A stretch of 63,952 bases of DNA from Alphaproteobacteria bacterium (lineage in GTDB: Bacteria > Pseudomonadota > Alphaproteobacteria > CADEGL01), in the NCBI GenBank assembly GCA_026400755.1, contig JAPLOM010000002.1, forward strand, positions 1-63,952, in the 5' to 3' direction. Below are positions 27,615 through 58,733 of this stretch, piece after piece (positions within the stretch are counted from its first letter, which is position 1; every line of letters starts with the position of its first letter). The position numbers and the translations under genes are program-made. The notes beneath the pieces were generated by a model. That model was not told the origin of the DNA. It made no database searches and was given only the letters and a program-made list of their open reading frames with translations.

Positions 27615-27623
27615 CGTGTAACG

Positions 27624-29654: not shown

Positions 29655-29655
29655 G

Positions 29656-33358: not shown

Positions 33359-33365
33359 CGGTCGG

Positions 33366-36743: not shown

Positions 36744-36750
36744 GGGCGCC

Positions 36751-38214: not shown

Positions 38215-38223
38215 TCCGCGTTC

Positions 38224-39669: not shown

Positions 39670-39676
39670 GGCCGGG

Positions 39677-41062: not shown

Positions 41063-41098
41063 GGTGGTTTGCGCGCGAAGCGGGAACTCCGCTTCGGA

Positions 41099-42067
41099 TC
41101 AGGGGCCTTTCAGCACTGGGTAAAGCGTGTCGGCCATCAGTTGGTGGCCGCGCGCGTTGGGATGGGGGTCGCCCGGCATGGCCCAGATATTCTCGGGTTT
41201 CTCATGCTCAAAGGGCGGATAGAGATCGACGAACGTGAAACCTTCCTTTGCCGCGACGCCCGCCATCCGCTCGTGGATATAGCGGAAGGGATAGTTGGTT
41301 AGCTGGTGCACGTCGGGCGTGATGGCCAAGTAGACTCGGACATGGTGCGCGTCGGCATAAGCTTTGATGCGGTCGAGCCCAGCCAGCATCTCCTTATAGC
41401 CTTCGGATTGCGGGTCGTAGGCGGCCCGGTAGTGCGATTCCAAATTGCCCATACCGGTCTGGCCGAACAGGCGGTTGGCCGCGATCCACAGGGTGACGGC
41501 CAACTGGCTGTGGCGCAGGATCCAGTTGCCGCCGCCGGCTGGCAGGATTTCTGCGTCGTTGATGAAATAGTTGATGACGATGTCGGTCGGCTCTAGCATC
41601 GTCAGGCGTTTCAGGAGCAATTCGCTGTAACGCGTGGTGTTATAGTTGCCGATGCCGGCGTTCAGCACCTGCACATCCGCCCCGTCCTTGTTGAATTTTT
41701 CCTGGATCAACGCGGTCACGGTCTGATCCTCGGGCACGCCCCAGCCGAGTGTGATCGAGCTGCCGAGAAACAGGATGCGCCGTTCGCCGGGCTTCAGCGG
41801 CGGCACCGGCCCGCCCCGTAGCCCATATTCGTTGGTGCGGATATCGACGTTCTGCAGATGCGCTTCCTTGTTGGGCCGGTGTTCATGGCCCATCAGCGGG
41901 TCGTCGCTCGGCTTCTTCAGCGTGTTGGCGTATTTCCACATTTCGATGTCGTAGTTCGTACCCGCCGAGTTCTTCACGCGCAGGATCATCTCTGCTGCCG
42001 CCAAAGAAACGATCAGCGAAACGATCACCGCGATCGCGGAGAACAGGACGGTGCGACCTTTGGTCAT
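41099..42067 (-). CDS. Membrane-anchored SGNH/GDSL hydrolase-like protein
   Basis: A 322-residue protein with one N-terminal membrane helix (about residues 7-27). SGNH blocks are LFLGSSITLGWGV (Ser), NAGIGNYNTTRYSELLL (Asn) and PGDPHPNARGHQLMAD (Asp/His). It is likely a periplasmic acyl transferase or esterase acting with the MBOAT protein. ATG 42067 overlaps the pseC stop as ATGA, so the O-acylation set is embedded inside the pseudaminic acid genes, hinting that this sugar is what becomes acylated. Confidence 0.82.
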   Translation of the reverse strand: MTKGRTVLFSAIAVIVSLIVSLAAAEMILRVKNSAGTNYDIEMWKYANTLKKPSDDPLMGHEHRPNKEAHLQNVDIRTNEYGLRGGPVPPLKPGERRILFLGSSITLGWGVPEDQTVTALIQEKFNKDGADVQVLNAGIGNYNTTRYSELLLKRLTMLEPTDIVINYFINDAEILPAGGGNWILRHSQLAVTLWIAANRLFGQTGMGNLESHYRAAYDPQSEGYKEMLAGLDRIKAYADAHHVRVYLAITPDVHQLTNYPFRYIHERMAGVAAKEGFTFVDLYPPFEHEKPENIWAMPGDPHPNARGHQLMADTLYPVLKGP

Positions 42068-43299: not shown

Positions 43300-43301
43300 G
43301 G

Positions 43302-44321
43302 TCAGAGTTCCGTCAGGACCTTCTTGAAGGTGGTTTCGTCGAGCCATTCTGAATTGTTGTCGCTGGTGTAGCGGAAACCCTCGGGCAGCGATTCGATATC
43401 CGCCGCGTCGTAGCGCTCGCGCTTCCAGAAGGCGAATTGCGGCTCGACCACGAAGCGGTCCTTGAGCGCGAAGCTGGTGCGCGCATCGTCTTCGGTCAAA
43501 AGCGCCTCGTGCAGCTTTTCGCCGGGGCGGATACCGATGACCTCCTGCTTAAGCGACGGCGCCATCAGACGCGCTAGTTCGACGATCGTCATGCTGGGCA
43601 GCTTGGGCACGAAGATCTCGCCGCCATGCATCATGGCCAGGCTGGCCAGCACGAAATCAACGCCTTGCTGCAGCGTGACCCAGAACCGCGTCATGCGCGC
43701 GTCGGTGACGGGCAGGCTTTTGGCGCCCTCTGCGATCAGGCGTTTGTAGAGCGGCACGACGCTGCCACGCGAACCCACCACGTTGCCGTAGCGCACGACT
43801 GAGAAGCGCGTGGGAAGAGAGCCCGCCAGGTTGTTGGCGGCGACGAAGATCTTGTCGGCGGCCAGCTTGCTGGCGCCATAGAGGTTGACCGGATTGACGG
43901 CTTTGTCGGTCGAGAGCGCCACCACGCGCTTGACGCCGCAGCGGAGCGCTGCGCCGACCACGTTTTCGGCCCCGTGGACATTGGTACGGATGCATTCGAA
44001 GGGATTGTATTCGGCAGCTGGCACATGCTTCAGCGCGGCGGCATGTACGACGAAGTCGATCTCGCGCATGGCCATTTCCAGCCGGTCCTTGTCCCGCACG
44101 TCGCCGATGAAGAAGCGCAGGCTGGGGTGGTCGGCGGCCTTGAAGGTCTGAGCCATGTCGTAGTGCTTCTGCTCATCTCGCGAGAACACGATGATGCGCT
44201 TGGGGTTGTGGCGGGCCAACAAGGTGGCCACGAGCTTCTGTCCAAACGAGCCGGTACCGCCGGTGACCAGGATGGACGCGCCGTCGAGAAGCGGTGCAGG
44301 GTGGGCGAAAGATCTCAACAT
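43302..44321 (-). CDS. pseB: UDP-N-acetylglucosamine 4,6-dehydratase (inverting)
   Basis: A 339-residue soluble SDR that converts UDP-GlcNAc to UDP-2-acetamido-2,6-dideoxy-L-arabino-4-hexulose, first step of pseudaminic acid synthesis. The Rossmann loop is SILVTGGTGSFGQKLV, and the catalytic segment NPVNLYGASKLAADK keeps Tyr and Lys, unlike the long WbpM-type enzyme elsewhere in the window. HVPAAEYNPFECIRTNV and IRPGEKLHEAL are family blocks. ATG 44321 is preceded by AGAGGAAG about five bases upstream, among the strongest ribosome-binding sites here. Confidence 0.94.
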   Translation of the reverse strand: MLRSFAHPAPLLDGASILVTGGTGSFGQKLVATLLARHNPKRIIVFSRDEQKHYDMAQTFKAADHPSLRFFIGDVRDKDRLEMAMREIDFVVHAAALKHVPAAEYNPFECIRTNVHGAENVVGAALRCGVKRVVALSTDKAVNPVNLYGASKLAADKIFVAANNLAGSLPTRFSVVRYGNVVGSRGSVVPLYKRLIAEGAKSLPVTDARMTRFWVTLQQGVDFVLASLAMMHGGEIFVPKLPSMTIVELARLMAPSLKQEVIGIRPGEKLHEALLTEDDARTSFALKDRFVVEPQFAFWKRERYDAADIESLPEGFRYTSDNNSEWLDETTFKKVLTEL

Positions 44322-44330
44322 CGCTTCCTC

Positions 44331-46166
44331 TCAGACGCCGCTCGCCAAGGCGCGCGGCGGGGGCGTAGGGCTGGCATGGGCTTGCTTCGCATAGGCCTGG
44401 GCGTACCACCCACCGCGTTGAATCAACTGTTCGTGGGTACCCCAATCCTCGACCTTACCCTCTCGTAGGACGATGATTCGGTCGGCCCGAACGATCGTCG
44501 ACAGGCGATGGGCGATGACAACGATCGTCTTGTTGGTCGCCTCGCGTATGTGGAACATCGCCGCGCGGAAATTTTCCTCAGCTTCAGCGTCTAGATTGCT
44601 TGTCGGCTCATCAAGAATCAAAACCGGCGCGTCACGGACAAGCGCGCGGGCCAAGTCCAGACGATGACGCTGGCCGCCCGACAGTCGAATGCCATCCTCG
44701 CCGACATACGTGTCGTAACCTTCGGGAAGTAACGATATGAAGTCGTGCGCCCCCGCCAGGCGAGCTGCGGCCTCAACCTCTGCATTGGTCGCATCAGGTT
44801 TGCCATAGCCGATATGTTCGCGCACGGTCACGTCGAAGATTTGCGCGCGCTGGGGTGCATAACTGACACTTTGGCGCAGGCTGTGACGATCAAAAGCCAC
44901 AATGGGAACATCATCAAACGTGATCTGTCCTGAATCCGATTCGCGCAGGCGCAATAGCATGTCGACCAATGTCGACTTGCCTGCGCCGGATGGGCCGACA
45001 AGCGCCACCAGTTGCCGCGCGGGTATTTCGGTGTCGACGCCGTTCAATGCCGGCGCCGTGCCAGTGGGATAGCGGAAGATGACGTTTTCGAACCGGATGC
45101 CCTGTTCCAGGCTTTCGAGTTTGCCGTCACCGCCGCGCGGTTCACGGGCGTCTTGCATGGCCTGCAAACGCTGATAAAACGCGGCGAGATGCGGCAGCAT
45201 ACCCACCATACCCTGGTATTGCTTCAACGCCTCTTTGACGGTCGGAAGCAGCCGTATAGCCACCACCAGCAATACACCGAACTCGCCCAAAGTAACGTTT
45301 AGAATAGTGTAGCCCACATAGACCATGATCAACATGATGCCGATCGCGATCGGTTCATAGAGTACATCGCCGCGCGCCAGCAATGTGCGAGTTCTGATGG
45401 TGCTGTCGCACTGGCTGCTCGATAACTTTCGCTCCAACTCGATTTCCGCATTCTCGATTCCTGCGAGCCGAATCAAGCGCGGCGAATCCAGGCGCTGCAC
45501 TAGGAACGTGGACAGAGTGCGATTGTCCTTCATCAATTGAGTGCCGCTCTGCACAGTCTTGCGGAAGACGCCGGCTAAAACCACGCCAGAAAGCGCCATG
45601 ATAAGCAGCGCAAGAACCACAGCGGGGCCAGAGACGACCATAAGCAGTGCGAGCAGAACGCAGACAACGACGCCATAGCAAGCGATCTGCGGACCGCCGA
45701 ACATGGCGTCGACACCGTACTTCATTTCGTTGAGAAGACTGTTGACCATCGCGCCAACAGAGATCCCATCCTGGTAGTTCGCGTCGGCGAAGAGATAGCG
45801 GCGAAAGCCTTCATCTCTCGCGTTGCGGCCGATTCTTTCGCGGTGACCAATTATATAGATCTGACGAATGTAGAAGACGATTTGCCGCATCAGGAAGGCG
45901 GCGAACATAAGAAACAGAAGCGATTCGAAGCCGAGAGGTAGGCCCAGCGCGCTGTAGCCTTGAACCAGATAACCCCAAAACCGATTTGTAGACGTCAACT
46001 GAGCGATGTCGCCACCGGCCTGCATGTATTGAAAAACCGGCAAGAACATCCCGATACCGATACTCTCGAACACTGCGCTCAAGCCCTGGAGCGCGATGAC
46101 GCCGGCCCAGATGGGCCACTTCAAACCCATCCGCCGGGAAATATTTAAGTACTCGCTGAATGTCAT
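44331..46166 (-). CDS. ABC transporter, fused permease-ATPase (PglK/MsbA-like flippase)
   Basis: A 611-residue half-transporter with six membrane segments (about residues 20-320) and a nucleotide-binding domain. Walker A is GPSGAGKSTLV near 393, the signature LSGGQRHRLDLARAL near 490, and Walker B APVLILDEPTSNLD near 512. It most resembles lipid-linked oligosaccharide flippases such as PglK. No Wzx or Wzm/Wzt is seen in this window, so it is the likely exporter of the assembled glycolipid. ATG 46166 overlaps the nucleotidyltransferase gene as ATGA. The region is noticeably more AT-rich than its neighbours. Confidence 0.88.
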   Translation of the reverse strand: MTFSEYLNISRRMGLKWPIWAGVIALQGLSAVFESIGIGMFLPVFQYMQAGGDIAQLTSTNRFWGYLVQGYSALGLPLGFESLLFLMFAAFLMRQIVFYIRQIYIIGHRERIGRNARDEGFRRYLFADANYQDGISVGAMVNSLLNEMKYGVDAMFGGPQIACYGVVVCVLLALLMVVSGPAVVLALLIMALSGVVLAGVFRKTVQSGTQLMKDNRTLSTFLVQRLDSPRLIRLAGIENAEIELERKLSSSQCDSTIRTRTLLARGDVLYEPIAIGIMLIMVYVGYTILNVTLGEFGVLLVVAIRLLPTVKEALKQYQGMVGMLPHLAAFYQRLQAMQDAREPRGGDGKLESLEQGIRFENVIFRYPTGTAPALNGVDTEIPARQLVALVGPSGAGKSTLVDMLLRLRESDSGQITFDDVPIVAFDRHSLRQSVSYAPQRAQIFDVTVREHIGYGKPDATNAEVEAAARLAGAHDFISLLPEGYDTYVGEDGIRLSGGQRHRLDLARALVRDAPVLILDEPTSNLDAEAEENFRAAMFHIREATNKTIVVIAHRLSTIVRADRIIVLREGKVEDWGTHEQLIQRGGWYAQAYAKQAHASPTPPPRALASGV

Positions 46167-47209
46167 GGTTTGTGGTCTTGTTCGGCCGCAGCCAAGTCGT
46201 GGGGTCGACCAATATCCCGCCAATACTCATGAATCGGGAAAAGCCCAATGGAAAGACCGAGAGCGCGGCCTTCGTTAAGGAGTTCCGGCATATCCATAGG
46301 CCGGTCATTGGGCACCAGCGCCGCGAATCCGGGACCTAAGAGGTAAATACCGCCAGCCACGAAATGGCCGATGCGTGGTTTCTCGTCAATGCGTTCGAAC
46401 AATCCATCCGAGGTATGTCGAATGACGCCGAAGGGGATGTCTATCTCGTGGCGCGCGACACCGATGGTCGCGTCGTAGCTGTGGCGAGTGTGGAACGCGG
46501 CCATGGCGTTGAAATCAACCGCACTGAGAACATCACCGTTTACCACCAGCACGACGTCACGCTGCGGCCGCGGTAGTAGCCCCAATGCGCCGATCGTGCC
46601 GCGTTGTTCGCCTTCATGGACGGTGTGAACGCGGGCCCGGCCCGCACGCGAGCGAATGAATGCCTCGATCTGGTCGGCCAGATAGTGAACCGAGACGAAG
46701 ATCTCAGGCACGCCTGCATCTTCCAGTGCTATCAACACGTGCTCCAGGATCGGTTTCTCACCCACGTCCAGGAGCGGCTTGGGAGTGGTTTTCGTGCGCT
46801 CGCCGAGGCGCGTGCCGCGCCCTCCTGCCATAACCAATGCTGTCTTGATTGCGGCCTTATCGCGTGCGCCGGCAACTAAAACTTCGTACACGCGACCGTC
46901 CGCGTCGAGAACCGGCAGAAAGGCTTTATAGCCACCGATCTTGCGCAGTTTCTCCGCATTGGCGGCATCCTCGTTTATGTGCCCCACCAGAGGATTGCGG
47001 TGTAAGCATCGGCCGACCGGCTCGTCGAGGCTAGCGCCGTCCAATATCGCGCGGCGAACATCGCCATCGGTCACGGTGCCATAAAGCCGGCCGTCGTCGT
47101 CGGTGACGAGCTGGAAAAGATGGTCGGTCGCATTGAGCCGTGCCAACGCCTCGCGGGTAGTCGCATCAACGCGGCAAAGATAAGGCGCGATGTCGATAAG
47201 GCGTATCAC
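46163..47209 (-). CDS. CBS-domain sugar nucleotidyltransferase (PtmE-like)
   Basis: A 348-residue protein. Residues 1-115 are two CBS domains (LVTDDDGRLYGTVTDGDVRRAIL, FLPVLDADGRVYEVLV) that probably sense nucleotides. Residues 120-348 are an NTP-transferase domain beginning ALVMAGGRGTRLGERT and containing VVNGDVLSAVDF. This arrangement matches Campylobacter PtmE, which makes GDP-glucosamine for legionaminic acid. Start is GTG 47209; the adjacent gene ends four bases away. Alternatively it could activate a hexose or heptose phosphate for another branch. Confidence 0.82.
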   Translation of the reverse strand: MIRLIDIAPYLCRVDATTREALARLNATDHLFQLVTDDDGRLYGTVTDGDVRRAILDGASLDEPVGRCLHRNPLVGHINEDAANAEKLRKIGGYKAFLPVLDADGRVYEVLVAGARDKAAIKTALVMAGGRGTRLGERTKTTPKPLLDVGEKPILEHVLIALEDAGVPEIFVSVHYLADQIEAFIRSRAGRARVHTVHEGEQRGTIGALGLLPRPQRDVVLVVNGDVLSAVDFNAMAAFHTRHSYDATIGVARHEIDIPFGVIRHTSDGLFERIDEKPRIGHFVAGGIYLLGPGFAALVPNDRPMDMPELLNEGRALGLSIGLFPIHEYWRDIGRPHDLAAAEQDHKP

Positions 47210-47212
47210 GCG

Positions 47213-47914
47213 TTATCCGATTACGGTTCCAGTCAGCCCACGCGCTGCGACGGCCTCGGCTAAGTGCCAATCGTCATCATCGTCAATATCGATGGCGGCA
47301 ATGCAATTCATCACTAACGGCAAAGTGCGAGGCGGAAACAGAGAGCCAGTTTGCCGCAGTGCATGTGTCCGGACGAGATAGAGGGCGCCGTTGGGTGTCA
47401 GAACGGGACTTGGTACGTCTTCGGAGGACAAAGGCGCGACATAGCCGTCGTCACCAGTCGAGAACAATTGGCGAGGCGTTCGATCAATGCGCGTCACGGC
47501 CACCACTGCGTCGGCATCTGGCTTCGCATCGAGCCGAGCGAGCGCCTCTGTGATGCACGCGCTGCCACGAAAAGGTGAAGTAACCTGCAAAACCATTACG
47601 AGTGCGGGATCGTGGCCGTGAGTATCCGCAAACCAATCGACCGCGTGAATGACGACGGGAACTGTCGCGGCATCGTCGGTGGCGAGCGACGTGGGACGCC
47701 GGAACGGCACCTGCCAGCCCAAGACTTTTCCGGCAGTTGCAATCGCGTCATCGTCGGTCGACAAAACGCATGTCGCCTGTACATTCGAGGCCCGCAGAGC
47801 ATCCGCGGCGCGTTCTAACAGACTGTGTCCCTCCAGTGCCCGAAGGTTCTTGCCTGGCAAGCGTTTCGACCCGCCGCGCGCGGGCACCACAACGAGAAGA
47901 CCGGTTTCGTTCAT
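47213..47914 (-). CDS. CMP-nonulosonate cytidylyltransferase (PtmB/LegF/NeuA-like)
   Basis: A 233-residue enzyme activating a nonulosonic acid as CMP sugar. The nucleotide-binding loop VVVPARGGSKRLPGKNLRAL is the acylneuraminate cytidylyltransferase signature, and VLQVTSPFRGSACITEAL gives the next motif. Placed beside the PtmE-like gene, it probably serves legionaminic acid, while the SpsF-type enzyme at 34945 serves pseudaminic acid. ATG 47914 forms ATGA with the amidotransferase stop. Which of the two synthetases handles which acid is inference. Confidence 0.85.
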   Translation of the reverse strand: MNETGLLVVVPARGGSKRLPGKNLRALEGHSLLERAADALRASNVQATCVLSTDDDAIATAGKVLGWQVPFRRPTSLATDDAATVPVVIHAVDWFADTHGHDPALVMVLQVTSPFRGSACITEALARLDAKPDADAVVAVTRIDRTPRQLFSTGDDGYVAPLSSEDVPSPVLTPNGALYLVRTHALRQTGSLFPPRTLPLVMNCIAAIDIDDDDDWHLAEAVAARGLTGTVIG

Positions 47915-49173
47915 TGCACGCGGTGCCGCAGCTCCCATCCGTTGCTCGTCTTGCGCCACAGATGGGGTGAGCGGAAGCGGTCCGCGATCTCAAAGAACTC
48001 GGCTTCGTTCATGTCCAGATAAGTCAGAAACTCTTTGAGGAATTTGCGCGGCACCTCGCCGTCATAGCGCCGCACCAACGCCACGCCCTCCTCTCGTGTG
48101 ATGTGATGATTGCGGATTTCCTGGCTGGCGTCGTAGGTCGAACGACCCAGACCGAATTTTATGAACGTCGTCCAGTAGTGATAGCCGTCGGTCTTGTCGT
48201 CGATCGAATTGTATTTGGAATAGGTGCCTTCGGTGCGTTCGGTGTTGGCCTGGAACCCGGCATGCTCGACGGAATAGTAGTAGCACTCCTGCGGCGTCCA
48301 CTTGAGGTAGTAGCCGAGGTAGTGCACCGCAATCCCGGCCTTGGCCAGCTCCTCGGCATCGGCGGGCATATAGGGCTCCATGCGGCCGACTTCGATGCCG
48401 TGCGCGGGCAGTTCCTGCAGAGGCACGCCGCCGAAATACATCTGTGCATTGGCCGCGCGTGCGCGGGCGTAATAGGACGCATCACGCCGCGCCTGCTTGT
48501 TCTCCGAGATTGGGTTGCCGTACTCGGCCTCGTTCTCGCCGTAGAAGACCAGCGGGATGTTCATGCGTAGCGCCATCTTGGGCGCATAGTTCTTCTGGCC
48601 CAAGATGAAGGGTTGGAAGGGATGCAGCAGGTTCTTATAAGCCAGCGCGGTCAGCTTGCGGTGCATCAGACCATCGGGGTGGAACAGGAAATTGTCGAAA
48701 CCGGCCTTGTGCACCCAGCCCTGAAAATTATGCCAACCCACATCGGTGTAGAGGTGGGGTGCCCAAGTGACCGTCAACGGGTGCATACTGTACTTGGTCT
48801 TGAGGACGTGCGAGGCGTAGATGGAATCCTTGCCACCCGAGCCGGGCACGAGGCAGTCATAGGATCCGTTGCGCGAGCGATAGCGGTCGCAGACCTCCTG
48901 CAACTCGCGCTCGCGCGCGGCCCAATCGACCATCGTGTCTTTCATGCGCGCGTAGAGGCAGGCGTCGCAAATACCTTCGTCGTTGAAGGCCAGCGTCGTC
49001 TTCTTGGAGCCAGCATGATGCTCGAATTCCACAGCTGACGCTGGTCGCTGGTTCGACATCACGCAGCTTTTGCAGAATTTCACTTCGCCCGGCAGCCCGT
49101 ACTTGACCTCCAGCAGCCCCTCCGCCGGGTCCATCAGGTAGATCTTGCCGTCCTTCTCGATCGTATCGGCCAT
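47911..49173 (-). CDS. N-acetyl sugar amidotransferase (WbpG/PseA/LegA-like)
   Basis: A 420-residue PP-loop enzyme that replaces the oxygen of an N-acetyl group with nitrogen, giving an acetamidino group. The ATP loop is PGSGGKDS at residues 110-117. Two cysteine pairs (CKSC at 34-37, CDAC at 69-72) form a likely zinc knuckle. ENEAEYGNPISENK and GYYLKWTPQECYYYSVEHAGF are family blocks. Ammonia would be supplied by the HisH- and HisF-like proteins encoded next. ATG 49173 has GAGAG upstream. Targets could be legionaminic or pseudaminic acid; PseA and WbpG are both close relatives. Confidence 0.92.
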   Translation of the reverse strand: MADTIEKDGKIYLMDPAEGLLEVKYGLPGEVKFCKSCVMSNQRPASAVEFEHHAGSKKTTLAFNDEGICDACLYARMKDTMVDWAARERELQEVCDRYRSRNGSYDCLVPGSGGKDSIYASHVLKTKYSMHPLTVTWAPHLYTDVGWHNFQGWVHKAGFDNFLFHPDGLMHRKLTALAYKNLLHPFQPFILGQKNYAPKMALRMNIPLVFYGENEAEYGNPISENKQARRDASYYARARAANAQMYFGGVPLQELPAHGIEVGRMEPYMPADAEELAKAGIAVHYLGYYLKWTPQECYYYSVEHAGFQANTERTEGTYSKYNSIDDKTDGYHYWTTFIKFGLGRSTYDASQEIRNHHITREEGVALVRRYDGEVPRKFLKEFLTYLDMNEAEFFEIADRFRSPHLWRKTSNGWELRHRVQ

Positions 49174-49183
49174 TGCTCTCTCG

Positions 49184-49804
49184 TCAGGGCGCGAAGTGGA
49201 CGAAGCGTTCGATCAGGCCAAGGCCGACCGGACCGCTCTTCTCCGGGTGAAATTGAAAACCGACGACGTTGCCACGCCGGAAGGCGACCGGAACATCCAT
49301 ACCGTTGACCGCAATGGTCGCGGCGACGTCCTCGTCTCGCGCAACGAAGGGGGCGTAAGAATGGACGAAATAGACCATGGCGCTTTCCGGCGCGCCTTCG
49401 AAGAATCCGCCGCGCGCCTGCAATGCGCGCCAGCCCACATTGGGAATGCGGATCGAATCGGGGCTACCGTTGCCTTCAGGCAGCCGGCGCACCGTCCCTG
49501 CGACAAGGCCAAGCCCGTCGTGCCGGCCAAACTCCTCGCCTGCCTCCAACATGACCTGCGCGCCAACGCAGATGCCCAGTATGGGCACGCCGCGCGCCGC
49601 CGCGCGTTTCAAAGGCTCAACCAGGTCGCGTGTCCGCAGGCCGTCCATGCAGTCGCCGAACGCGCCCACGCCCGGCAAGACGATGCGCTCGGCACGTTCG
49701 ACCGCGCCTGCGTCGTTGGTGATCTCATAAGGCGCACCCAAATGGCGCAGTGCCTGGCCGGTGCTGAACAGATTGCCGCGCCCGTAATCGACGACGGTGA
49801 TCAC
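49184..49804 (-). CDS. hisH: HisH-like glutamine amidotransferase of the acetamidino module
   Basis: A 206-residue class I glutamine amidotransferase that should release ammonia for the WbpG-like enzyme. It begins ITVVDYGRGNLFSTGQAL. The nucleophile lies in ILGICVGAQVML (Cys near 78), and FQFHPEKSG gives the catalytic His-x-Glu. GVGAFGDCM is the oxyanion region. GTG 49804 overlaps the hisF stop as GTGA. Being linked to wbpG and a divergent hisF rather than to other histidine genes, it is probably not the histidine-biosynthesis copy. Confidence 0.9.
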   Translation of the reverse strand: MITVVDYGRGNLFSTGQALRHLGAPYEITNDAGAVERAERIVLPGVGAFGDCMDGLRTRDLVEPLKRAAARGVPILGICVGAQVMLEAGEEFGRHDGLGLVAGTVRRLPEGNGSPDSIRIPNVGWRALQARGGFFEGAPESAMVYFVHSYAPFVARDEDVAATIAVNGMDVPVAFRRGNVVGFQFHPEKSGPVGLGLIERFVHFAP

Positions 49805-50562
49805 GTCCGCACCGCAATACCATGCTGGACCAGATGATTCTTCAAGGTCGGGACCGGGCAGGTGCCATAGTGGAACATGCTGGCGCAAGCGACTGCGTCA
49901 ATCGTTCCGGTCTCGACGAGCGCGCTCACATGTCCGGGCGTACCCGCGCCACCGCAGGCGATGACCGGAACGCGCACCCGCCCATGAACCGCATCGATGA
50001 GCTCGGCGTCGAAACCGGCCTTGGTGCCTTCCTGGTCGACCGAAGTGATCAGGACCTCGCCCGCGCCCAACCGCTCCGCTTCGACGACCCAGTCCAATAC
50101 GTCGACGCCCGTTGTCTCGCGCCCGTTGTCGGTCAGCGCTTCCCACTTGCCAGGCGCGCGCCGCTTGGCCTCGACCGACAGCACGATGCATTGGGATCCC
50201 AAAGTTTCGGCCGCTTCCTTGAGAAATGAAGGGCGGGCGATGGCCGCGGTATTGATGGCCACCTTGTCTGCTCCGCTGCGCAGGGCTGCCACGATATCGT
50301 CCAACGAACGAATACCACCACCAACGGTCAGCGGCACGAAAACATCGCGCGCGGCTTCCTCCACGACGGTCAGTATGTTGTTGCGTCCATACAACGAGGC
50401 AACGATGTCCATGTAGATGATCTCGTCGATGCCCTCTTCATAATAGCGACGCGCCAACTCGCCGGGTTTGCCGACGATGCGCAGCCCTTCCAGGTGCACC
50501 CCCTTCACGACGTTCGAGCCCTTGATGTCGAGCCGGGCGATGATCCGGACCGGTGGCTTCAT
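49801..50562 (-). CDS. hisF: HisF2/AglZ-like cyclase subunit of the acetamidino module
   Basis: A 253-residue TIM barrel forming an ammonia channel with HisH. ARLDIKGSNVVKGVHLEGLR and MDIVASLYGRNNI are the form found next to WbpG genes, not the classical LDVKDGRVVKG. The first catalytic aspartate of HisF (Asp11 in Thermotoga) is kept in RLDIK. The second (Asp130) is Glu here, in LSVEAKR near residue 130. TSVDQEGTK is conserved. The enzyme is therefore probably specialised to pass ammonia to WbpG rather than to make imidazole glycerol phosphate. Confidence 0.9.
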   Translation of the reverse strand: MKPPVRIIARLDIKGSNVVKGVHLEGLRIVGKPGELARRYYEEGIDEIIYMDIVASLYGRNNILTVVEEAARDVFVPLTVGGGIRSLDDIVAALRSGADKVAINTAAIARPSFLKEAAETLGSQCIVLSVEAKRRAPGKWEALTDNGRETTGVDVLDWVVEAERLGAGEVLITSVDQEGTKAGFDAELIDAVHGRVRVPVIACGGAGTPGHVSALVETGTIDAVACASMFHYGTCPVPTLKNHLVQHGIAVRT

Positions 50563-50571
50563 GGCTTGGAG

Positions 50572-51381
50572 TCAGGCCGCCGACCGGCTGCGCCGACGCA
50601 CATCCAGCGTCGCATAACCCTGCATGATGCGGCTGGCGATGAACAGCAGCGCGGCGACGCCGTAGAGGAAGGCCAATAGGACGAGATAAAGGTCAAGCCG
50701 ATCCCAACAAAGAGCGGCGGCTAAGCCCGCATAGCGCAGGTCGAAAACGGAGTTCATGCCACGTGCATCGAACGTCAATACGGCCCGCCCTGCCGGCGAT
50801 GCCAGAAAAGCGTTCAACCAAGGATGGTTCGCGGGGCCAGCCGGCAGACCGGATCGCCTCTGCTCTTTTTCGAGGAGCAGTTCGAACATCGAAAACCGGT
50901 GAATCAGCAAGAATACGAACGAGAGCGCCAGGGTCGCGGCCGCGCCGACCAAAACCGGGGCCGGGCTTGCTTCCTTCGACAGCCAGAGATGAATCCCGAG
51001 TGCCAGCGGAAACAGGAGGTCTGCCATCATGTCGACCAGGCCATCGAAATATTTGCCAAAATAAGACGCGCTGTCTTGCAGCCGACTGAGATTGCCGTCG
51101 ATGCTGTCGGCGATCACAGCTAGCACGTAGAGAATTAACCCCATGATCAGCCCGGCCGCGCTGGGGTTCGCGATACAGACTGCTCCGGCCAATATCAGCG
51201 CGACGCGCAATGCCGTCACCTGGTTGGGCGACGCCCCGATGCGCGCCGCAACGACGGTGAGCGGCCAAGCCGCCGGGACGAAGACGAAACGCATGACCAA
51301 TGGCAAGGAAACCCGCGCGAGATTTTGGGACGCGCGTACTGCGGCTATGCTGATTCGCGCGCTTGGTCCTTCGGCGTTCAC
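50572..51381 (-). CDS. CDP-alcohol phosphatidyltransferase family protein
   Basis: A 269-residue membrane protein with about six hydrophobic segments. It carries the family motif as ADSIDGNLSRLQDSA followed by GKYFDGLVDMMAD, that is D-x2-DG...G-x3-D-x3-D with Ser in place of the usual Ala. These enzymes transfer a phospho-alcohol from a CDP donor (or CDP-diacylglycerol) to an acceptor alcohol. In a glycan operon it could add a phosphoalcohol or build a special lipid, but neither donor nor acceptor is evident. The GTG 51381 overlaps the next gene as GTGA; longer readings add 48 unlikely residues. Confidence 0.78.
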   Translation of the reverse strand: MNAEGPSARISIAAVRASQNLARVSLPLVMRFVFVPAAWPLTVVAARIGASPNQVTALRVALILAGAVCIANPSAAGLIMGLILYVLAVIADSIDGNLSRLQDSASYFGKYFDGLVDMMADLLFPLALGIHLWLSKEASPAPVLVGAAATLALSFVFLLIHRFSMFELLLEKEQRRSGLPAGPANHPWLNAFLASPAGRAVLTFDARGMNSVFDLRYAGLAAALCWDRLDLYLVLLAFLYGVAALLFIASRIMQGYATLDVRRRSRSAA

Positions 51382-52901
51382 ACGCGTTCCGGCTGGCTTG
51401 CGGGCCGTTGCCCCAAGTTCACATCCTTCAGACCGCGCAAAAGCGCATCGCACGCGTCCTGGACAGCCCGTGGCTCGAAATTCGTCAGGACGCGGTAACT
51501 GTAGCCACAAAGATCGAATGAGCACGCCTTCACCGCGGCCAGGAACCGGGCGCCGTCCGTGCGGGCGCGTTCGCTGGGCGCGGAGTGTCCGAAAGCCTCG
51601 TGGAGATAGCTCGCGAGCTTGGATTCGTCTGTGACCACCCGCACATGGGGCAGGAAGCCGTAAATGTTATGGCGACCAAAGGCGATCACCGGTTTGCCCA
51701 GCACCGCAGCCTCGAATCCCGCGGTACCGCAAATGGTTACGGTCACGTCGGCGGCCCGAACGCAATCCAGCCCGAACTCGGTCGGATCGAGCAGCACGAC
51801 ATTCTTGAACTCCGCGATCTGGCCGTAGAAGTCCTTTGGGCGTCGGCCGATCGCGGTCATATGCTCCTTCACCACGAGAATTGTGCCTGCGGGCAAATCT
51901 CGCGACACCGCCGCGATCAGCGACAGTTGATAGAAATACTCCGGCGACAGGCCTTGGAGCGAGGTTTCCGGTTCCAGGTGAAGCGGATAGAAAGCAAAGC
52001 GCCGCCCCGTCAGATTTGAAAGCCGTGTTCGCGCCAGGCGCGCCAAGCGCCGACTATCCGCCCAAATCCGATAGAAGTATTTGAGATTCTCGCGCAGGTA
52101 GTAGCCGCGTGCCTTCTGGTATCTGCGCAAGTGCCAATAGGCGTACTTCGCGACTTCGCGTGCGCTGCGCTTGATGAGCGCCAGCGCATTGCGTTGGCTG
52201 ATAAACCAATTGCGAAATTGAAGGTGGCTCGCATACGGCGTTTCTAGTTCCGCGCCGCCGCTCGTTCCGCCGAGCGACCGATAGGCATGTTCGATTTCGC
52301 CGTTCTCGTAGAATTCGTCCCATGCCCAGTTGTGGAAGTTTTGGTAACGGGATCCGTTGATGACGCGATATGGAATGCCTCGCGCGCGCGCGATCAGCGC
52401 CATCTCCTTGTTGCCGTTAATGATCAGGTCGAACCCGCGCGCGGATATCTCATCGCCCCAATAGCTCAAGCTAGCGCAGTAGTGGCGCAGCACGTCGTCG
52501 TAGCTGCTGTTCTCAGACATTCGGGAGCGCGGATGATAATAGCCGCCAAGGGCGTAACCGCGCCCCAAGTGGCGATTGGTGATGACAAGCGTGTTGAGTG
52601 TGGCGCCCAGCCGATCTTCCCACCTCCTCGCCGACGCGACGAGTGCGTCTCCCGACGGCAAGGCGTCGAGTCGCCCGCGAAATGGCGGATCGAAATCCAC
52701 GATCTCGGAAAAAACACCGTCCTTGTTCACGCCGGCGTAGAACGCGACTTCCTGGCGGTTGCTGCAGTAGAGAATGATTGAGGCTCCGGTCCGGCGCTTC
52801 ACTTCGGTCGCGATCGCGGTCATTAAGAAGCGCGTCTCGGAACGTGCATAGAGAGCGATCTGCTTGGGCACGAACGGGCTATGCGGCGTAATGGGGTTCA
52901 A
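51378..52901 (-). CDS. Capsule-biosynthesis-like GT-B protein
   Basis: A 507-residue protein. An N-terminal strand-helix unit (IALYARSETRFLMTAIATEVKRR, ASIILYCSN) and a C-terminal domain (GTILVVKEHMTAIGRR, CVRAADVTVTICGTAGFEAAVLGKPVIAFG) fit the capsule polysaccharide/KDO-transferase GT-B pattern, in which the Glu of GFEA contacts the donor. The middle, about residues 110-330, is rich in Tyr, Arg and Trp and unassigned. The start is TTG 52901, two bases after the stop of the next gene upstream. It could transfer one of the nonulosonic acids; confidence in that is low. Confidence 0.6.
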   Translation of the reverse strand: MNPITPHSPFVPKQIALYARSETRFLMTAIATEVKRRTGASIILYCSNRQEVAFYAGVNKDGVFSEIVDFDPPFRGRLDALPSGDALVASARRWEDRLGATLNTLVITNRHLGRGYALGGYYHPRSRMSENSSYDDVLRHYCASLSYWGDEISARGFDLIINGNKEMALIARARGIPYRVINGSRYQNFHNWAWDEFYENGEIEHAYRSLGGTSGGAELETPYASHLQFRNWFISQRNALALIKRSAREVAKYAYWHLRRYQKARGYYLRENLKYFYRIWADSRRLARLARTRLSNLTGRRFAFYPLHLEPETSLQGLSPEYFYQLSLIAAVSRDLPAGTILVVKEHMTAIGRRPKDFYGQIAEFKNVVLLDPTEFGLDCVRAADVTVTICGTAGFEAAVLGKPVIAFGRHNIYGFLPHVRVVTDESKLASYLHEAFGHSAPSERARTDGARFLAAVKACSFDLCGYSYRVLTNFEPRAVQDACDALLRGLKDVNLGQRPASQPERV

Positions 52902-52903
52902 GG

Positions 52904-53731
52904 CTACGACCGGCGGATTTCGATATATTTGCCGATGCGCTGTCGAAAAGCCTGGAACGCGGGCAAGTGCGTAGGGTCTGCTCGGAAAGGATCCAAGTGT
53001 TCGTGGTCTGAGATCAACGCCGGATCGTGCAACGAATGCTTGACATTGTAGGTCACTAGACGATTGGACGCGGTGAGTTGGATTTGTCCGAACCAGCTCC
53101 GCTCATCCGGCCGCAGCAATTCGATAAGGGCCGCGCTGCGCACGCTGAGTGGCGGAATCTTGATATTGCCGGACGTGCGTCCGTCCTGCGTCAAAATCTT
53201 AGCTAAAACCGGCCGCTTGTAGGGGTTGATCAGCGTGATGCTTTCGGCGAGGTCGCGGTCACGATCCAAGTGTACGACCGGGTAGCCGTCCACGAATCGG
53301 CCAAACATCGCGATCTGGCTGATGACCGGCGGCGCCCCGTATTTATACGCATTATCGGAAAAGAAGGATTTCTTTCCAGGTGCGGTGTAGATCGTATAGA
53401 AACCGATGGCGGCCTTGTTCGCGAAAATCTCGCGCTCGTCCGCATCGTGGAAGCTCAACTCCAGAAAGCCATTCCGCTTTTTCCATGCGTCGCCCACATC
53501 GCGCCACACCAACGGCGCTGGAGCGTGGGTAGGACGCTTGTCCCCTCTGAAATCGATGCGTTGCTCGCCTTCGTGGACGATCCGGCCTTCGTGATAGATG
53601 TAAAAGTGCGCGACGACCGTGCAGGAGGTCGCGTTTATCCGACGGGCAATCGCGTCGACCGGAATGGGAACCGTGCAGTCGTAGCCGACTGGCAACGAGC
53701 TGATGGTGGGAAGAACATAATTCCAGGCCAT
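52904..53731 (-). CDS. Uncharacterised beta-rich protein
   Basis: A 275-residue protein I do not recognise. It lacks signal peptide, membrane segments and cysteine clusters. Predicted strands alternate with short loops. Around residue 180, ITLINPYKRPVLAKILTQDGR, then IKIPPLSVRSAALIELL and LTASNRLVTYNVKHSL, look like successive strands of an immunoglobulin-like sandwich, ending in LISDHEHLDPF. The C-terminal half of the [2Fe-2S] protein encoded just upstream has a similar order of strands and ends in LSIDHL, so the two may be paralogues. It sits between a GT-B-like gene and that protein, spaced by two bases on each side. Confidence 0.55.
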   Translation of the reverse strand: MAWNYVLPTISSLPVGYDCTVPIPVDAIARRINATSCTVVAHFYIYHEGRIVHEGEQRIDFRGDKRPTHAPAPLVWRDVGDAWKKRNGFLELSFHDADEREIFANKAAIGFYTIYTAPGKKSFFSDNAYKYGAPPVISQIAMFGRFVDGYPVVHLDRDRDLAESITLINPYKRPVLAKILTQDGRTSGNIKIPPLSVRSAALIELLRPDERSWFGQIQLTASNRLVTYNVKHSLHDPALISDHEHLDPFRADPTHLPAFQAFRQRIGKYIEIRRS

Positions 53732-53733
53732 TG

Positions 53734-54744
53734 TCAGAGATGATCTATGGAAAGTCGGTCAAGATCGGGGGTTGCGCAGAACAGGTGCATCTTGCCGAGC
53801 CCGTCAGTGCGGAACCGCACGCCGAAAAGCGTCCCCTTCAAAACGCGCGATGCTGGATCTGACAGGATGATTTCGTGGAGCGCCGCACCATAAGCTGGAA
53901 TAGACAGCCGGTGAGAAGAAGATGCGGCGCCATCGGCGAACGGATAGGCGATCTCGACACCCAAAGGTGAGGCAGACGCGTTGACGGCACTCACGAAAAG
54001 CCGTTCGTCTGTGGGGCGATGATAGACGCTGAGCCATCGATCTCGCAGCCGTCCCGGTGCTTGGCTGTGGACGGCGCAAGCGCCGCCTGCGCTGACGATC
54101 TGAACCTGCGGCCGCGTCGTGCCTCTTACGCCTGGGGCGCGGAACCGGCGCGAGATACGAACCGAGCCGATGCCGATTTCCCCGGATGGCGTACCCAGAT
54201 GGTGAGATACGGAAATCCGCTGAGCGGTACCGGCATTGGTCGAGTGGGTTTCGTGATGGACCTCGTGTCCCGCCTCGTCGCGAACAACGAGCGTCAAATC
54301 CATGTCTGTCGCGCAGACGTCGGATTCATACAGCAGAGACTGGTTGGCGACACACACACATTCCTCGAAGCCGGATCCATAAAGCACCGGCATATAATCG
54401 GCCAGCGGCATCGGAGTCTGTGGCGACAAACTGTCGAGAAGACGATAGAGCCGCTGCTTGAGCGAAACCGTTTCACGGCGACGTTGTGCTCTGCCCGATG
54501 CCGCGGAAGCCCCGCCACCCCGCGGAAGCGTGGTGTAGTGGTATTCGAGGTCCAGCAGGCAGGCCGTACAAGTGCCGCCGGCACCCGTCTTCTGAAGCAG
54601 GGCATCGAAGGAGATATTGGGCTGTTCATTCAAGATGCGCTGAAGATCGGTCAGGCGGAATTCCTTGCATGGACACAGCATGCCATCTCCGCTGTCCGGC
54701 CCGGCATCCGGCTTCGCGATCATCGAACTTTCAGATGCCGCCAT
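53734..54744 (-). CDS. BFD-like [2Fe-2S] domain fused to an unknown beta-rich domain
   Basis: A 336-residue protein. Residues 22-65 have the cysteine pattern C24-x-C26-x32-C59-x2-C62, with CPCKEFRLTDLQRIL and LLQKTGAGGTCTACLLDL, the layout of the bacterioferritin-associated ferredoxin (BFD) fold that binds one [2Fe-2S] cluster. After a basic linker, residues 110-336 form a beta-rich domain of unknown function, with further cysteines at ECVCV and VCATD. No signal peptide is visible, so it is likely cytoplasmic. ATG 54744 overlaps the NeuC-like gene by 14 bases; ATG 54723 is possible. A role in electron transfer to, or regulation of, sugar modification is conceivable, but nothing in the sequence proves it. 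Confidence 0.65.
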   Translation of the reverse strand: MAASESSMIAKPDAGPDSGDGMLCPCKEFRLTDLQRILNEQPNISFDALLQKTGAGGTCTACLLDLEYHYTTLPRGGGASAASGRAQRRRETVSLKQRLYRLLDSLSPQTPMPLADYMPVLYGSGFEECVCVANQSLLYESDVCATDMDLTLVVRDEAGHEVHHETHSTNAGTAQRISVSHHLGTPSGEIGIGSVRISRRFRAPGVRGTTRPQVQIVSAGGACAVHSQAPGRLRDRWLSVYHRPTDERLFVSAVNASASPLGVEIAYPFADGAASSSHRLSIPAYGAALHEIILSDPASRVLKGTLFGVRFRTDGLGKMHLFCATPDLDRLSIDHL

Positions 54745-55918
54745 GTGGGCCTGCGCTGTCCGCTTCACCCGGCGATCCCCACGGCGCAATGAAGTGCTGG
54801 GTTTCTGCAGCGAAGCGCTTATAAAGAAGCCGCGCCGTGCCGTGCATCTCGGTCACGGCTTCGGCTACGCGAGCCGCCGCGTGTCCGTCGCCGTACGGCG
54901 TTGTGTGCGGTAATCGCGGCAGTACGCCGCGCAGCATCCGCGCCACCTCGTCCGCGTGGGCAGCGCAGTCGCGTACATTGGCGCCGCGTTGCCGTCCACC
55001 TTGCCGTTCGCCGACATTGATCACGGGCAGACCGAACAGCCCGGCCTCGATCACGCCGCTGGAGGAATTGCCCACCATGACGGCGGCGTGGCGCAACGCG
55101 TTGGCGTAGAGCGTGGCGCCTAGCGTTTCGCGGAAGACGGCGCGACCGTGCTTGCTCACGAAGGCATCGATACGCGCCCGCGCTTCGGCGCCGCCGGGGT
55201 CGGCGTTAGGCGCTGTGATCAGCGATGGACCCGGCGTGGCTTCGAGCGCGGTCAAGGTGGCATCCACTGCGGCTAAGGGTGCCGTCACGTTCGTCTCGGG
55301 ATGGACGGTCACGAGGCGCAGGCCCTCGATCGAGGCCAGACCCAATTCCCGCGCGAAGGCCGCGCCGTCCAGTACAGGTGCCTCGACCAGGGAATCGAGG
55401 CCAGGCGCGCCAGTCACCCGGATGCGCCAGGCTTCCTCGCCCATGCGCGCAATCCGCTCGGCGGCTTCAACGTTCGCGGTGCAGTGGAGGTGGGATAGTT
55501 TGGTAATGGCGTGCCGTACGCGATCGTCGGCGGCACCATAGGTCAATTCGCCGCCATGCAGATGCACCAGCGGAACGTTCAGCGGCACGAAGCCCATGAC
55601 GGCGGGCAACATGTCCAACCGATCGCCCATAACGAGGGCGCGGTCCGGCGCGATGCGCGCGCCCAGGCGGCCCGCGGCGGCGGCGATGCGCGCCATGGCG
55701 TCGGAGGCGGCTAGCCCATCGCGGCCGCCCATGTCGGCGCCCTCAGTGTGCCCGGTCGCGCCGTGCGGCAGAGCCGCACGCACGGTCGAGTCGTCTGAAA
55801 CATGGGCGCCGGTCAACATCACGTGCAACTCAACATCCGCACGGTAGGCCAAGGCGCGCCACACCGGCGCCAGGATGCCCACGTCAGCGCGTCCACTGGA
55901 AACGCTCAGCACCTTCAT
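54731..55918 (-). CDS. legG: UDP-sugar 2-epimerase, hydrolysing (NeuC/LegG-like)
   Basis: A 395-residue GT-B-fold enzyme that releases UDP while epimerising C2, giving the free 6-carbon precursor of a sialic-acid-like sugar. It begins VLSVSSGRADVGILAPVW (canonical TGTRADYG), keeps LVMGDRLDMLPAV, VHLHGGELTYGAADDRVRHAI and VGNSSSGVIEAGLFGLPVINVGERQGGR. Being followed by NeuB- and NeuD-like genes and LegC, the substrate is likely UDP-2,4-diacetamido-2,4,6-trideoxyglucose. ATG 55918 shares one base with the neuB stop; GTG 55921 is equally possible. Confidence 0.88.
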   Translation of the reverse strand: MKVLSVSSGRADVGILAPVWRALAYRADVELHVMLTGAHVSDDSTVRAALPHGATGHTEGADMGGRDGLAASDAMARIAAAAGRLGARIAPDRALVMGDRLDMLPAVMGFVPLNVPLVHLHGGELTYGAADDRVRHAITKLSHLHCTANVEAAERIARMGEEAWRIRVTGAPGLDSLVEAPVLDGAAFARELGLASIEGLRLVTVHPETNVTAPLAAVDATLTALEATPGPSLITAPNADPGGAEARARIDAFVSKHGRAVFRETLGATLYANALRHAAVMVGNSSSGVIEAGLFGLPVINVGERQGGRQRGANVRDCAAHADEVARMLRGVLPRLPHTTPYGDGHAAARVAEAVTEMHGTARLLYKRFAAETQHFIAPWGSPGEADSAGPHGGI

Positions 55919-56919
55919 CACACCAGATCGCCTGAGCGGATCGCCGTGTCCGCGCGCCGCGCGCGCTTCAGACGGCGCCCAAAGGGCGCGTTGCTCGGAG
56001 ACAAACCGTCGGCGGGGCGTTTCAGCACTAAGTCGTCCTTGGCCAGCGTCGTGCCGGCCGAAAGATCGCGCCGTGCATGCCAGCTCCGGCGCACCAGGTG
56101 CGCGACGGCCGTCTCGCCGCGCGCAGGTCGCTTGATGCCGTCGCCCAGCGCGGCTGCGGTCTCACGCAGGCGGACGATCATGTCTTTCAGCTCGGCGGGT
56201 TCCAGCGATGCCTTGTGATCAGGGCCGGGCAATGTGCGGTCGAGGGTGAAATGTTTTTCTATCGCGACAGCGCCCAGCGCCACGGCGGCGACGGAAACGT
56301 GATCGCCCATCGAATGGTCGGAATAGCCCACATCCACGTCGAACGCGCGCCGCATGGTTTCGATCGCTCGTAGATTGATTGCGCTGACGGGTGCGGGATA
56401 GAGCGAGGTGCAGTGAAGCAGCGTGACGTCCTTCGCACCCGCGCGGCGCAGAACAGCCAACGCGCGGCCAACCTCGGCTTTGGTCGCCATGCCCGTGGAC
56501 AGGATGACGGGCAAGCGGAAGCGGGCTAACTCGCGCAGCATGGGCTCGTTGGTCAGCTCGCCCGACGGAATCTTAATCCGATCCATTCCCATGGCGATCA
56601 GGGGTGCCGCCATCGCGGTGTCGAATGGCGTGACCAGGAAGCCGATTCGCGCGCGGCGGCATTCCTTGGCCAGCGTGGCGAAGTCGGACAACGACAGTTC
56701 GAGTTTCCGCAACAACGAAAGCTGGTTGCGCACGCCCGCGTTCTTCTTCTGATAGGCTGCCGTCGCCGCGCGATGCGAGACTAGTGCTTCGGCGCGGAAA
56801 GCCTGGAACTTCACGTAATCGGCGCCTGCACTGGCGGCTACGCGCACCATCTTCTTGGCGCGCGCCAGGCTGCCGTTGTGGTTCACGCCGGCCTCGGCGA
56901 TCACAAGCGGCGCTGTCAC
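55918..56919 (-). CDS. legI: N-acetylneuraminate/legionaminate synthase (NeuB/LegI-like)
   Basis: A 333-residue TIM-barrel enzyme condensing the NeuC product with phosphoenolpyruvate. LVIAEAGVNHNGSLARAKKM, DYVKFQAFRAEAL, YQKKNAGVRNQL, KIPSGELTNEPML and GYSDHSMGDHVS are hallmarks of the NeuB branch. The PseI-specific GLWDGRTLYDLY block is absent, so it differs from the synthase at 35685. The C-terminal SAF domain (RRSWHARRDLSAGTTL) is present. GTG 56919 gives GTGA overlap with the acetyltransferase gene; the longer reading adds 37 arginine-rich residues. Confidence 0.92.
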   Translation of the reverse strand: MTAPLVIAEAGVNHNGSLARAKKMVRVAASAGADYVKFQAFRAEALVSHRAATAAYQKKNAGVRNQLSLLRKLELSLSDFATLAKECRRARIGFLVTPFDTAMAAPLIAMGMDRIKIPSGELTNEPMLRELARFRLPVILSTGMATKAEVGRALAVLRRAGAKDVTLLHCTSLYPAPVSAINLRAIETMRRAFDVDVGYSDHSMGDHVSVAAVALGAVAIEKHFTLDRTLPGPDHKASLEPAELKDMIVRLRETAAALGDGIKRPARGETAVAHLVRRSWHARRDLSAGTTLAKDDLVLKRPADGLSPSNAPFGRRLKRARRADTAIRSGDLV

Positions 56920-57491
56920 GGCTTGCCGCCATGGCGCGTCAGCGCCGGTACCAGCGCTTCGTCGGCAACCATCGAACTCGACAGCACCACGGCGCTCGCG
57001 CCGATCATGACGCAGCGCCCTACGCAGCAACTGCCAAGGACCATAGCGCCCGGAGCTACATGGCTGCCTTCGCCAATCATGCTGTCATGCTCGACCACGG
57101 CGCGTGTGTTGACGATGGCACCGCGTCCGATCACCGCGCCCGGTTGCACCACGGCACCGGCCAGCACGATGGCGCCCGCTTCGAGCGTCGCGGCGGGACT
57201 GACATGGGCTTGTGGGTGGACGATGGAGGGTGCGGGATGGCCACGGCCGATATAAGCATCGAGCAGAGCGAGGCGTGCCTTGAGCTGTGTGGCTGTTACA
57301 CCGCCCATGCCGAGGACGATTGGGATGCCGTTGGTTTTCACGTCCGTGTCCGCCGTCAATTGCGCGGCGTGCAGCCAATTGGACGGGCGCGGATCGACAT
57401 AGGCCACAATGGGGCCTATGGAAGCGGTCGCCGCTTCCGCCACCGCTTTCGCGTGACCACCCGCGCCGATTAGGATGCAGGCGATCGGCAT
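56916..57491 (-). CDS. NeuD/PglD/LegH-like sugar N-acetyltransferase
   Basis: A 191-residue protein. Residues 1-80 have the UDP-sugar-binding Rossmann-like half (ACILIGAGGHAKAVAEA, VAYVDPRP). Residues 85-185 have hexapeptide repeats (AHVSPAATLEAGAIVLAGAV) and the family His in AVVEHDSMIGEG. It is predicted to acetylate the 4-amino group made by LegC. It lies between LegC (two bases away) and the LegI-like synthase, exactly where a LegH would be expected. A NeuD-type O-acetyltransferase is the alternative. Confidence 0.85.
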   Translation of the reverse strand: MPIACILIGAGGHAKAVAEAATASIGPIVAYVDPRPSNWLHAAQLTADTDVKTNGIPIVLGMGGVTATQLKARLALLDAYIGRGHPAPSIVHPQAHVSPAATLEAGAIVLAGAVVQPGAVIGRGAIVNTRAVVEHDSMIGEGSHVAPGAMVLGSCCVGRCVMIGASAVVLSSSMVADEALVPALTRHGGKP

Positions 57492-57492
57492 C

Positions 57493-58611
57493 TCAGCCGC
57501 CCGCGCGCCGCGGCCATTTGGCCAGCACCGCGATGACGCGCGCCTGCTGTTCGTCGGTCAGCGACGAGCTGCAGGGCAGGGAGACCACGGTACCGGACAG
57601 TTTCGCGGCCACACCGGTCAGGCGGTGCGGTGCGTGGGCATAGAGCGCCTGATCAGACAGGGTGCGCCAGAAAGTGCGCGCCTCGATGTCGTGCTCGGCC
57701 ATGTGCTGGACGAGGTCACGCGCCTCGGCCTCGCCGCGGCAGCGCACCGAATAGAGCCAGCACGCGCTTTCGCCCCACGGCGTGCGTGGCATGGGCTGCA
57801 TGTCGTTGCGTCCGGCGACGGCGCGATCGTACGTTGCCGCAATGCGCCGCTTGGCCGCGACCATTTCTTCCATCCGCTCGATCTGTGCCAACAGGACACC
57901 TGCGTTCAGGTTGGTCATGCGGTAGTTGAAGCCAATCTCATCATAACGATACTCGGCACCGCTGCGCGCCTGGGCCGAGATGGCGCGAAGGCGCTTGGCC
58001 TGGCTCTCGTCGTCGGTCACCACCATGCCGCCGCCGCCGGCCGTGACCGTCTTGTTGCCGTTGAAGCTAAAGATGGCCATGTCGCCGAGCCCGCCGACGG
58101 GCCGGCCTTTGTAGCGCGCGCCGATGGCGCCCGCGGCGTCCTCGATTAGGGGTATGCCCGCTGTCCGGCACAGGGACAGAAGCGGATCGACATCGGCCGG
58201 GTGGCCCAGTACATGGACCACGAGAACAGCGGTGATGCGGCCGGGCGGATCGCGCAGAATGGCTTCTAGCACGGCGGGATCGAGCGACCAGCTTTCCTCG
58301 GTTACGTCGGCGAAGATCGGAATCGCGCCCGCGTGGTGCGCGGCGTTGGCCGTAGCAGCGAAGGTCCAGTCCGGTACCACGACATGATCGCCTGGCTTCA
58401 CGCCCGCGGCCGTCATGGCTAGCTGCAGCGCCGTCGTGCCGTTTACCGACGCCACGGCATAGGCGCGCCCGGCCAGGGCCGCGATCTGCTTTTCGCACTC
58501 GGTCACGAACGGGCCGGCCGAGGAAACCCAGTTATCCTGCACGCAGCGCGCGAGATAGGCGCTCTCGTTGCCGCGCAGGTCGGGAATCGCGAGGGGGATG
58601 CGTTCGCTCAT
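57493..58611 (-). CDS. legC: UDP-4-amino sugar transaminase, LegC-like
   Basis: A 372-residue DegT-family PLP aminotransferase adding the 4-amino group to the LegB product. RIPLAIPDLRGNESAYL, VQDNWVSSAGPFV and SVNGTTALQLAM are typical of LegC/PglE. IFSFNGNKTVTAGGGGMV holds the PLP lysine near 188. ATG 58611 has no good ribosome-binding site; a TTG at 58638 would add nine residues. This is the first gene of the long minus-strand array after the AT-rich gap at 58612-58810, which contains a candidate promoter. Confidence 0.9.
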   Translation of the reverse strand: MSERIPLAIPDLRGNESAYLARCVQDNWVSSAGPFVTECEKQIAALAGRAYAVASVNGTTALQLAMTAAGVKPGDHVVVPDWTFAATANAAHHAGAIPIFADVTEESWSLDPAVLEAILRDPPGRITAVLVVHVLGHPADVDPLLSLCRTAGIPLIEDAAGAIGARYKGRPVGGLGDMAIFSFNGNKTVTAGGGGMVVTDDESQAKRLRAISAQARSGAEYRYDEIGFNYRMTNLNAGVLLAQIERMEEMVAAKRRIAATYDRAVAGRNDMQPMPRTPWGESACWLYSVRCRGEAEARDLVQHMAEHDIEARTFWRTLSDQALYAHAPHRLTGVAAKLSGTVVSLPCSSSLTDEQQARVIAVLAKWPRRAGG

Positions 58612-58733
58612 GGCTGGGGTCGGGCAAGACGGAGACAAGGCTACCGCACGGCGGGTGAAGCGCTCTCCCGCATCAAGTCGGAATCAAGCGCGCCTATTAG
58701 ACCAAAAGCATTTGAAAAATAAAGAATTTTTTG

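Follow-up and report, generated by a model that had tools for sequence, protein, structure and literature searches.

Two adjoining genes in a nonulosonic acid locus

The window (the whole stretch of 63,952 nucleotides that was analysed) contains an open frame for a protein that we call P0001 and, on the same strand, a second gene, P0002, that starts 2 bases past the P0001 stop codon (Table 1). An earlier note on this DNA had placed P0001 inside a nonulosonic acid locus, and the neighbouring genes bear this out. They encode PseB, an ABC exporter (from a reading of the sequence), a CBS-nucleotidyltransferase, a CMP-sugar synthase, WbuX/WbpG, HisH, HisF/WbuZ, a CDP-alcohol phosphatidyltransferase, a Capsule_synth-like protein, NeuC, NeuB, and a LegC-like aminotransferase. 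The earlier note had treated P0001 as a single-protein unit. The protein stands as described but the unit is a two-gene module with P0002, which that note did not mention.

The locus apparently holds two nonulosonic acid gene sets, at positions 34945-44321 and 46163-58638 of the window. The first is pseudaminic-type, with PseB at 43302 (NCBIfam), an aminotransferase, and synthase-like genes; the second is legionaminic-like and includes the acetamidino genes. The CDP-alcohol phosphatidyltransferase gene (50572-51525) lies within the nonulosonic acid operon, which suggests alcohol-phosphate decoration. At 26068-33568 there is a cassette, one gene of which is asparagine-synthase-like, that the window shares with the left ends of two phosphonate-type loci with the pair (L052 and L053) described below.

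Table 1. Positions of the features in the window and of methyltransferase genes in other loci with the pair
Feature	Position	Strand	Basis
P0001, BFD + tandem beta-sandwich protein, 336 aa	53734..54744	-	Open frame; homologues in 18 further loci; AF2
Predicted BFD-like [2Fe-2S] domain of P0001, residues 23-67; Cys24, Cys26, Cys59, Cys62	54544..54678	-	Pfam PF04324; PDB Bfd matches; cysteines in 19/19 loci
First beta-sandwich of P0001, residues 110-226; invariant Asn134 in strand 126-135	54067..54417	-	AF2; invariant alignment column
Second beta-sandwich of P0001, residues 229-336, eight strands, ASRT/TM1070-like; invariant Asn255 ending strand 2	53737..54060	-	AF2; VIA-align; hhalign
P0002, 275 aa; two beta-sandwiches (about 1-128 and 130-246) and C-terminal helix	52904..53731	-	AF2; adjoins P0001 in 19/19 loci
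WbuX/WbpG N-acetyl sugar amidotransferase	47911..49173	-	NCBIfam TIGR03573, E 1.4e-107
HisH-like and HisF/WbuZ-like genes, acetamidino modification	49184..50562	-	NCBIfam
NeuC and NeuB genes	54731..57030	-	TIGR03568, TIGR03569
CBS-nucleotidyltransferase and CMP-nonulosonate synthase-like genes	46163..47959	-	
SAM methyltransferase beside pair	L040:9136-9927, L044:4215-4988, L045:658-1434, L056:8376-9152		
SAM methyltransferase beside pair	L058:8357-9163, L043:8765-9700, L052:11854-12681, L053:11583-12629		

The BFD-like domain of P0001

The four cysteines of P0001 form the motif C-x-C-x32-C-x2-C, as the earlier note had read it in this frame. When the whole protein was compared with Fer2_BFD (PF04324), residues 23-67 matched with 18 bits (E 0.0037), and the N-terminal 57 residues taken separately gave 22.5 bits (E 1.5e-4). 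Because the curated cut-off of this family is 26 bits, the single sequence by itself is borderline. The score of 18 bits also explains why a search of the source genome with Fer2_BFD at E 0.001 missed P0001; this search returned five other BFD domains, one of which is a stand-alone 67-aa frame (L001).

All 15 members of the alignment of P0001 homologues (26-43% identity to P0001) match PF04324, with a best E of 2.1e-10, which argues that the match in P0001 is not due to chance. The homologues bear out the BFD assignment of the earlier note. A search of PDB sequences with the family profile placed four bacterioferritin-associated ferredoxins at the top, although their E-values (0.017-0.12) are weak. 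Conservation of the four cysteines had been named in the note as a check on the assignment; they are kept in 19 of 19 homologues, with a middle spacing of 29-33 residues, so the assignment survives on this count as well. On the sequence grounds of homology and invariant cysteines, we place the N-terminus of P0001 with the BFD domains.

Other BFD domains are [2Fe-2S] proteins. P0001 resembles Bfd in its CxC-x(about 31)-CxxC arrangement, its profile match, and its short helices, but differs in that the domain is fused to two beta-sandwiches and lies in glycan loci. A further difference is that the third Cys is followed by Thr in 19 of 19 P0001 homologues, whereas 32 of 37 other BFD-type motifs have a Gly there; this Gly is common in Fer2_BFD rather than defining. 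With Thr in place of the usual Gly, the environment of the cluster may differ. BFD domains also occur within the larger polypeptides of NirB/NasB/NifU-type proteins, which are redox enzymes or Fe-S scaffolds; unlike these, P0001 has no recognised enzyme domain.

Beta-sandwich domains of P0001 and P0002

The AF2 model of P0001 (mean pLDDT 79.9) has the BFD helices followed by a helix at residues 95-106 and then two beta-sandwiches. What the earlier note had called an unknown beta-rich domain is all-beta in this model, but it is not one unknown domain, since it comprises two sandwiches of which the C-terminal one resembles ASRT, the Anabaena sensory rhodopsin transducer. With VIA-align, residues 229-336 aligned with TM1070 (1nc7) at a Z of 10.3 and an rmsd of 3.2 over 102 aligned residues, which is 2 Z units over the next row. 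The TM1070 structure was used to define the ASRT/ASRAH superfamily (PMC2739507). Comparison of this domain with five ASRT sequences by hhalign gave a probability of 70% and a P of 4.1e-5, with reversed-profile controls at 0.03 or above. The corresponding values for the first sandwich of P0001 (P 0.013) and for the first (P 0.14) and second (P 0.012) sandwiches of P0002 were not significant. A plain HMM search gave 1095 hits outside the family; the top eight of these include four ASRT-family sequences and one P0002 homologue, all with weak E-values.

The strand at residues 248-255 of P0001 ends on Asn255, which corresponds to the hallmark Asn of the superfamily; by inspection, this hallmark is also found as Asn134 in P0001 and Asn169 in P0002. 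The Trp expected at the start of ASRT strand 1 is present as Trp237 in P0001 and in many, although not all, homologues. The eight-stranded sandwich with an Asn ending strand 2 is thus common to P0001 and the ASRT/ASRAH proteins (TM1070, PF07100, Anabaena ASRT), and the pair shares with them an intracellular setting, multiple domains, and sugar-metabolism neighbourhoods. By contrast, PF07100 (ASRT) had no match in the source genome or in the P0001 homologue alignment, and the SHExxC ligand signature is not kept in the P0001 family, where the signature residues differ, including the ligand-contacting His and Cys. Fusion to a BFD domain and pairing with a second gene also set P0001 apart. Among the sandwiches, only the last one of P0001 reaches a significant P in the profile comparison, at the probability of 70% given above; for the others, the predicted fold and one conserved Asn are suggestive of the relationship.

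P0002 was modelled by AF2 with a pLDDT of 89.2. It has no Pfam family, and its closest VIA structure match (Z 6.7) is not above the stated background of the tool, leaving no clear solved relative. A comparison of P0001 and P0002 profiles over their whole lengths revealed no homology (P 0.044); only comparison at the domain level gave any, between the two second sandwiches (P 9e-4). P0002 homologues have a conserved loop, HSLxDPxxISDHEHLDPFRxDPTH, and His232, Glu244, His245, Arg250, Thr254, and His255 are invariant in their alignment. Residues 248-256 have a pLDDT below 50 in the AF2 monomer.

Several structural matches were not used. Foldseek matches to the whole model (GH2 galactosidases and IBDV VP2) had TM-scores below 0.25, matches of SIDT extracellular domains to the first sandwich of P0001 (Z about 8) were taken to reflect a common sandwich arrangement, and a PDB cytochrome P460 match to P0002 (E 0.11) was treated as chance.

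Distribution and gene neighbourhood of the pair

In each of the 19 loci, the gene directly after the P0001 homologue on the same strand is a P0002 homologue, and the two genes either overlap or lie a few bases apart. Eight of 372 genomes have P0002 and all eight have P0001, so that P0002 without P0001 was found in none of the 372. A ninth, borderline P0002 match (G125) was discarded, being antisense to a long ATPase-like frame. Pairwise distances within the P0001 and P0002 families correlate (Spearman 0.84), which shared ancestry alone may account for.

In a first pass, P0001 homologues were found in three of 96 relatives, the source genome not being counted. Within the class, 10 of 385 genomes have a homologue, including the source genome and two distant ones. 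Scanning contigs with the single P0001 sequence gave no matches and an alignment query was needed; this returned 14 named contigs, nearly all of them alphaproteobacterial MAGs. One of the 14 is labelled Gammaproteobacteria yet resembles a Rhodospirillaceae locus. A tblastn search of plasmids with P0001 gave no match. Of 349 genomes drawn evenly from the phylum, the source genome alone had a full-length P0001 match. These low frequencies in the class and the phylum indicate that the pair is sporadic. P0001 and P0002 are an undescribed, always-paired protein set, sporadic in Alphaproteobacteria and located in surface-glycan loci in nearly all cases.

The earlier note had proposed a survey for co-occurrence with NeuB and WbpG genes. 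One or the other has a homologue on the examined stretch in 16 of the 19 loci; within 10 kb of the pair, homologues of WbpG and of NeuB are each found in 13 of 19 loci. WbuX scored over the cut-off in nine of 10 genomes with the pair versus 69 of 375 without it, for a Fisher P of 3e-6 that overstates independence because the genomes are related by descent. This supports the glycan-pathway setting that the note had claimed, but not the specificity for nonulosonic acids. From a reading of the sequence, L052 and L053 instead have phosphonate genes (PEP-mutase and phosphonopyruvate-decarboxylase-like) with no WbpG nearby, which indicates that the role of the pair is not specific to nonulosonic acids.

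The 117 neighbours fall into 86 families. The 25 most frequent families are led by methyltransferases, together with NAD-type epimerases, nucleotidyltransferases, and ABC exporters, and none of these 25 is a conserved redox partner or an oxidoreductase shared by the loci. Two other gene arrangements were observed. A SAM methyltransferase family with a start motif like LRGxxxSxRxRF adjoins the pair in eight of 19 loci (Table 1) and was not found in the window. In three glycan loci with the pair, a PhyH-like dioxygenase gene is followed by an FkbM-like methyltransferase gene, as read from the sequence (L049:4529-6453, L051:4367-6306, and L041:3-1282).

Possible roles of the pair

We know of no iron-sulfur protein in the established nonulosonic acid pathways, and our search of a collection of open-access papers found none joining legionaminic acid, acetamidino modification, and iron-sulfur. 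For the ASRT/ASRAH superfamily, sugar binding has been proposed on genomic and structural grounds, and its members have been proposed to act as intracellular metabolite sensors in dyads or tetrads; BFD and ferredoxin are absent from the main text of that paper (PMC2739507).

Our leading explanation, which we hold tentatively, is that P0001 and P0002 form one cytoplasmic sugar-binding complex that is gated or docked via the [2Fe-2S] BFD domain. The two sandwiches of each protein would together give four ASRT-like sandwiches, as many as the TM1070 tetramer has. The complex would bind a product of the locus, either a sugar nucleotide or a glycan intermediate, and would dock on the assembly or export machinery. 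The BFD domain would carry a [2Fe-2S] cluster, the loss or reduction of which could gate binding or docking, so that the cell would produce decorated surface glycan only when iron or redox conditions are suitable. The analysis shows the homology to BFD, the invariant cysteines, the obligate pairing, the predicted sandwich folds with the ASRT-like C-terminal domain, and the linkage to glycan loci; from these we infer an occupied cluster, assembly of a complex, binding of a sugar, and gating. A more specific idea is a two-protein device that ties the decoration of surface glycans to the iron or redox state of the cell, with the BFD domain as the gate of a four-sandwich sugar-binding complex; this is possible but rather doubtful.

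The strongest rival, although we consider it unlikely, is that the BFD domain is mainly structural. In this case a metal, either 2Fe-2S or even zinc, would hold a helical interaction domain that scaffolds the glycan enzymes, with neither sensing nor electron transfer. The lack of a conserved redox partner among the 25 most frequent of 86 neighbour families is in keeping with this, as is the Thr that follows the third Cys. Counting against it are the four strictly kept cysteines in the exact BFD order and the [2Fe-2S] nature of other BFD domains.

The earlier note had suggested that the protein could supply electrons to a sugar modification. As a ferredoxin-like donor to a sugar-modifying enzyme, P0001 would make use of its BFD domain, and the PhyH-type genes of L041, L049, and L051 offer a candidate partner. 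Fe/2-oxoglutarate enzymes need no ferredoxin, which weakens this case, and no oxidoreductase is common to the loci among the 25 most frequent of 86 neighbour families. This claim is therefore left without a conserved partner and we regard it as improbable. Sensing of iron or redox, which the note had also suggested, is possible. Slightly less probable than electron supply is a catalytic heterodimer, whose active site would combine the conserved P0002 loop with the DH at the C-terminus of P0001 and would catalyse a glycan step that is so far unrecognised. The invariant P0002 residues lie partly in the low-pLDDT stretch, as those of an interface or active site might, but the fold resembles binding domains and not enzymes. 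Supply of a cluster or iron to WbpG would fit the strong co-occurrence of the pair with WbuX/WbpG, but L052 and L053 have no WbpG near the pair, and in the WbpG homologue of Legionella the tetracysteine motif holds zinc (PMC10607449), so we set this aside as very improbable.

If the pair is a sugar-binding complex as we propose, a conserved pair in which a BFD domain is joined to sugar-sensor-like folds would connect the assembly of surface glycans with iron or redox status. Sugar ligands of ASRT proteins have so far been proposed from context and structure (PMC2739507), and the pair would give this superfamily a setting in which a guess at the ligand can be put to the test. The joining of a ferredoxin-type domain to sugar-sensor-like folds in this pair suggests that the synthesis of certain bacterial surface sugars may be tied to the iron or redox state.
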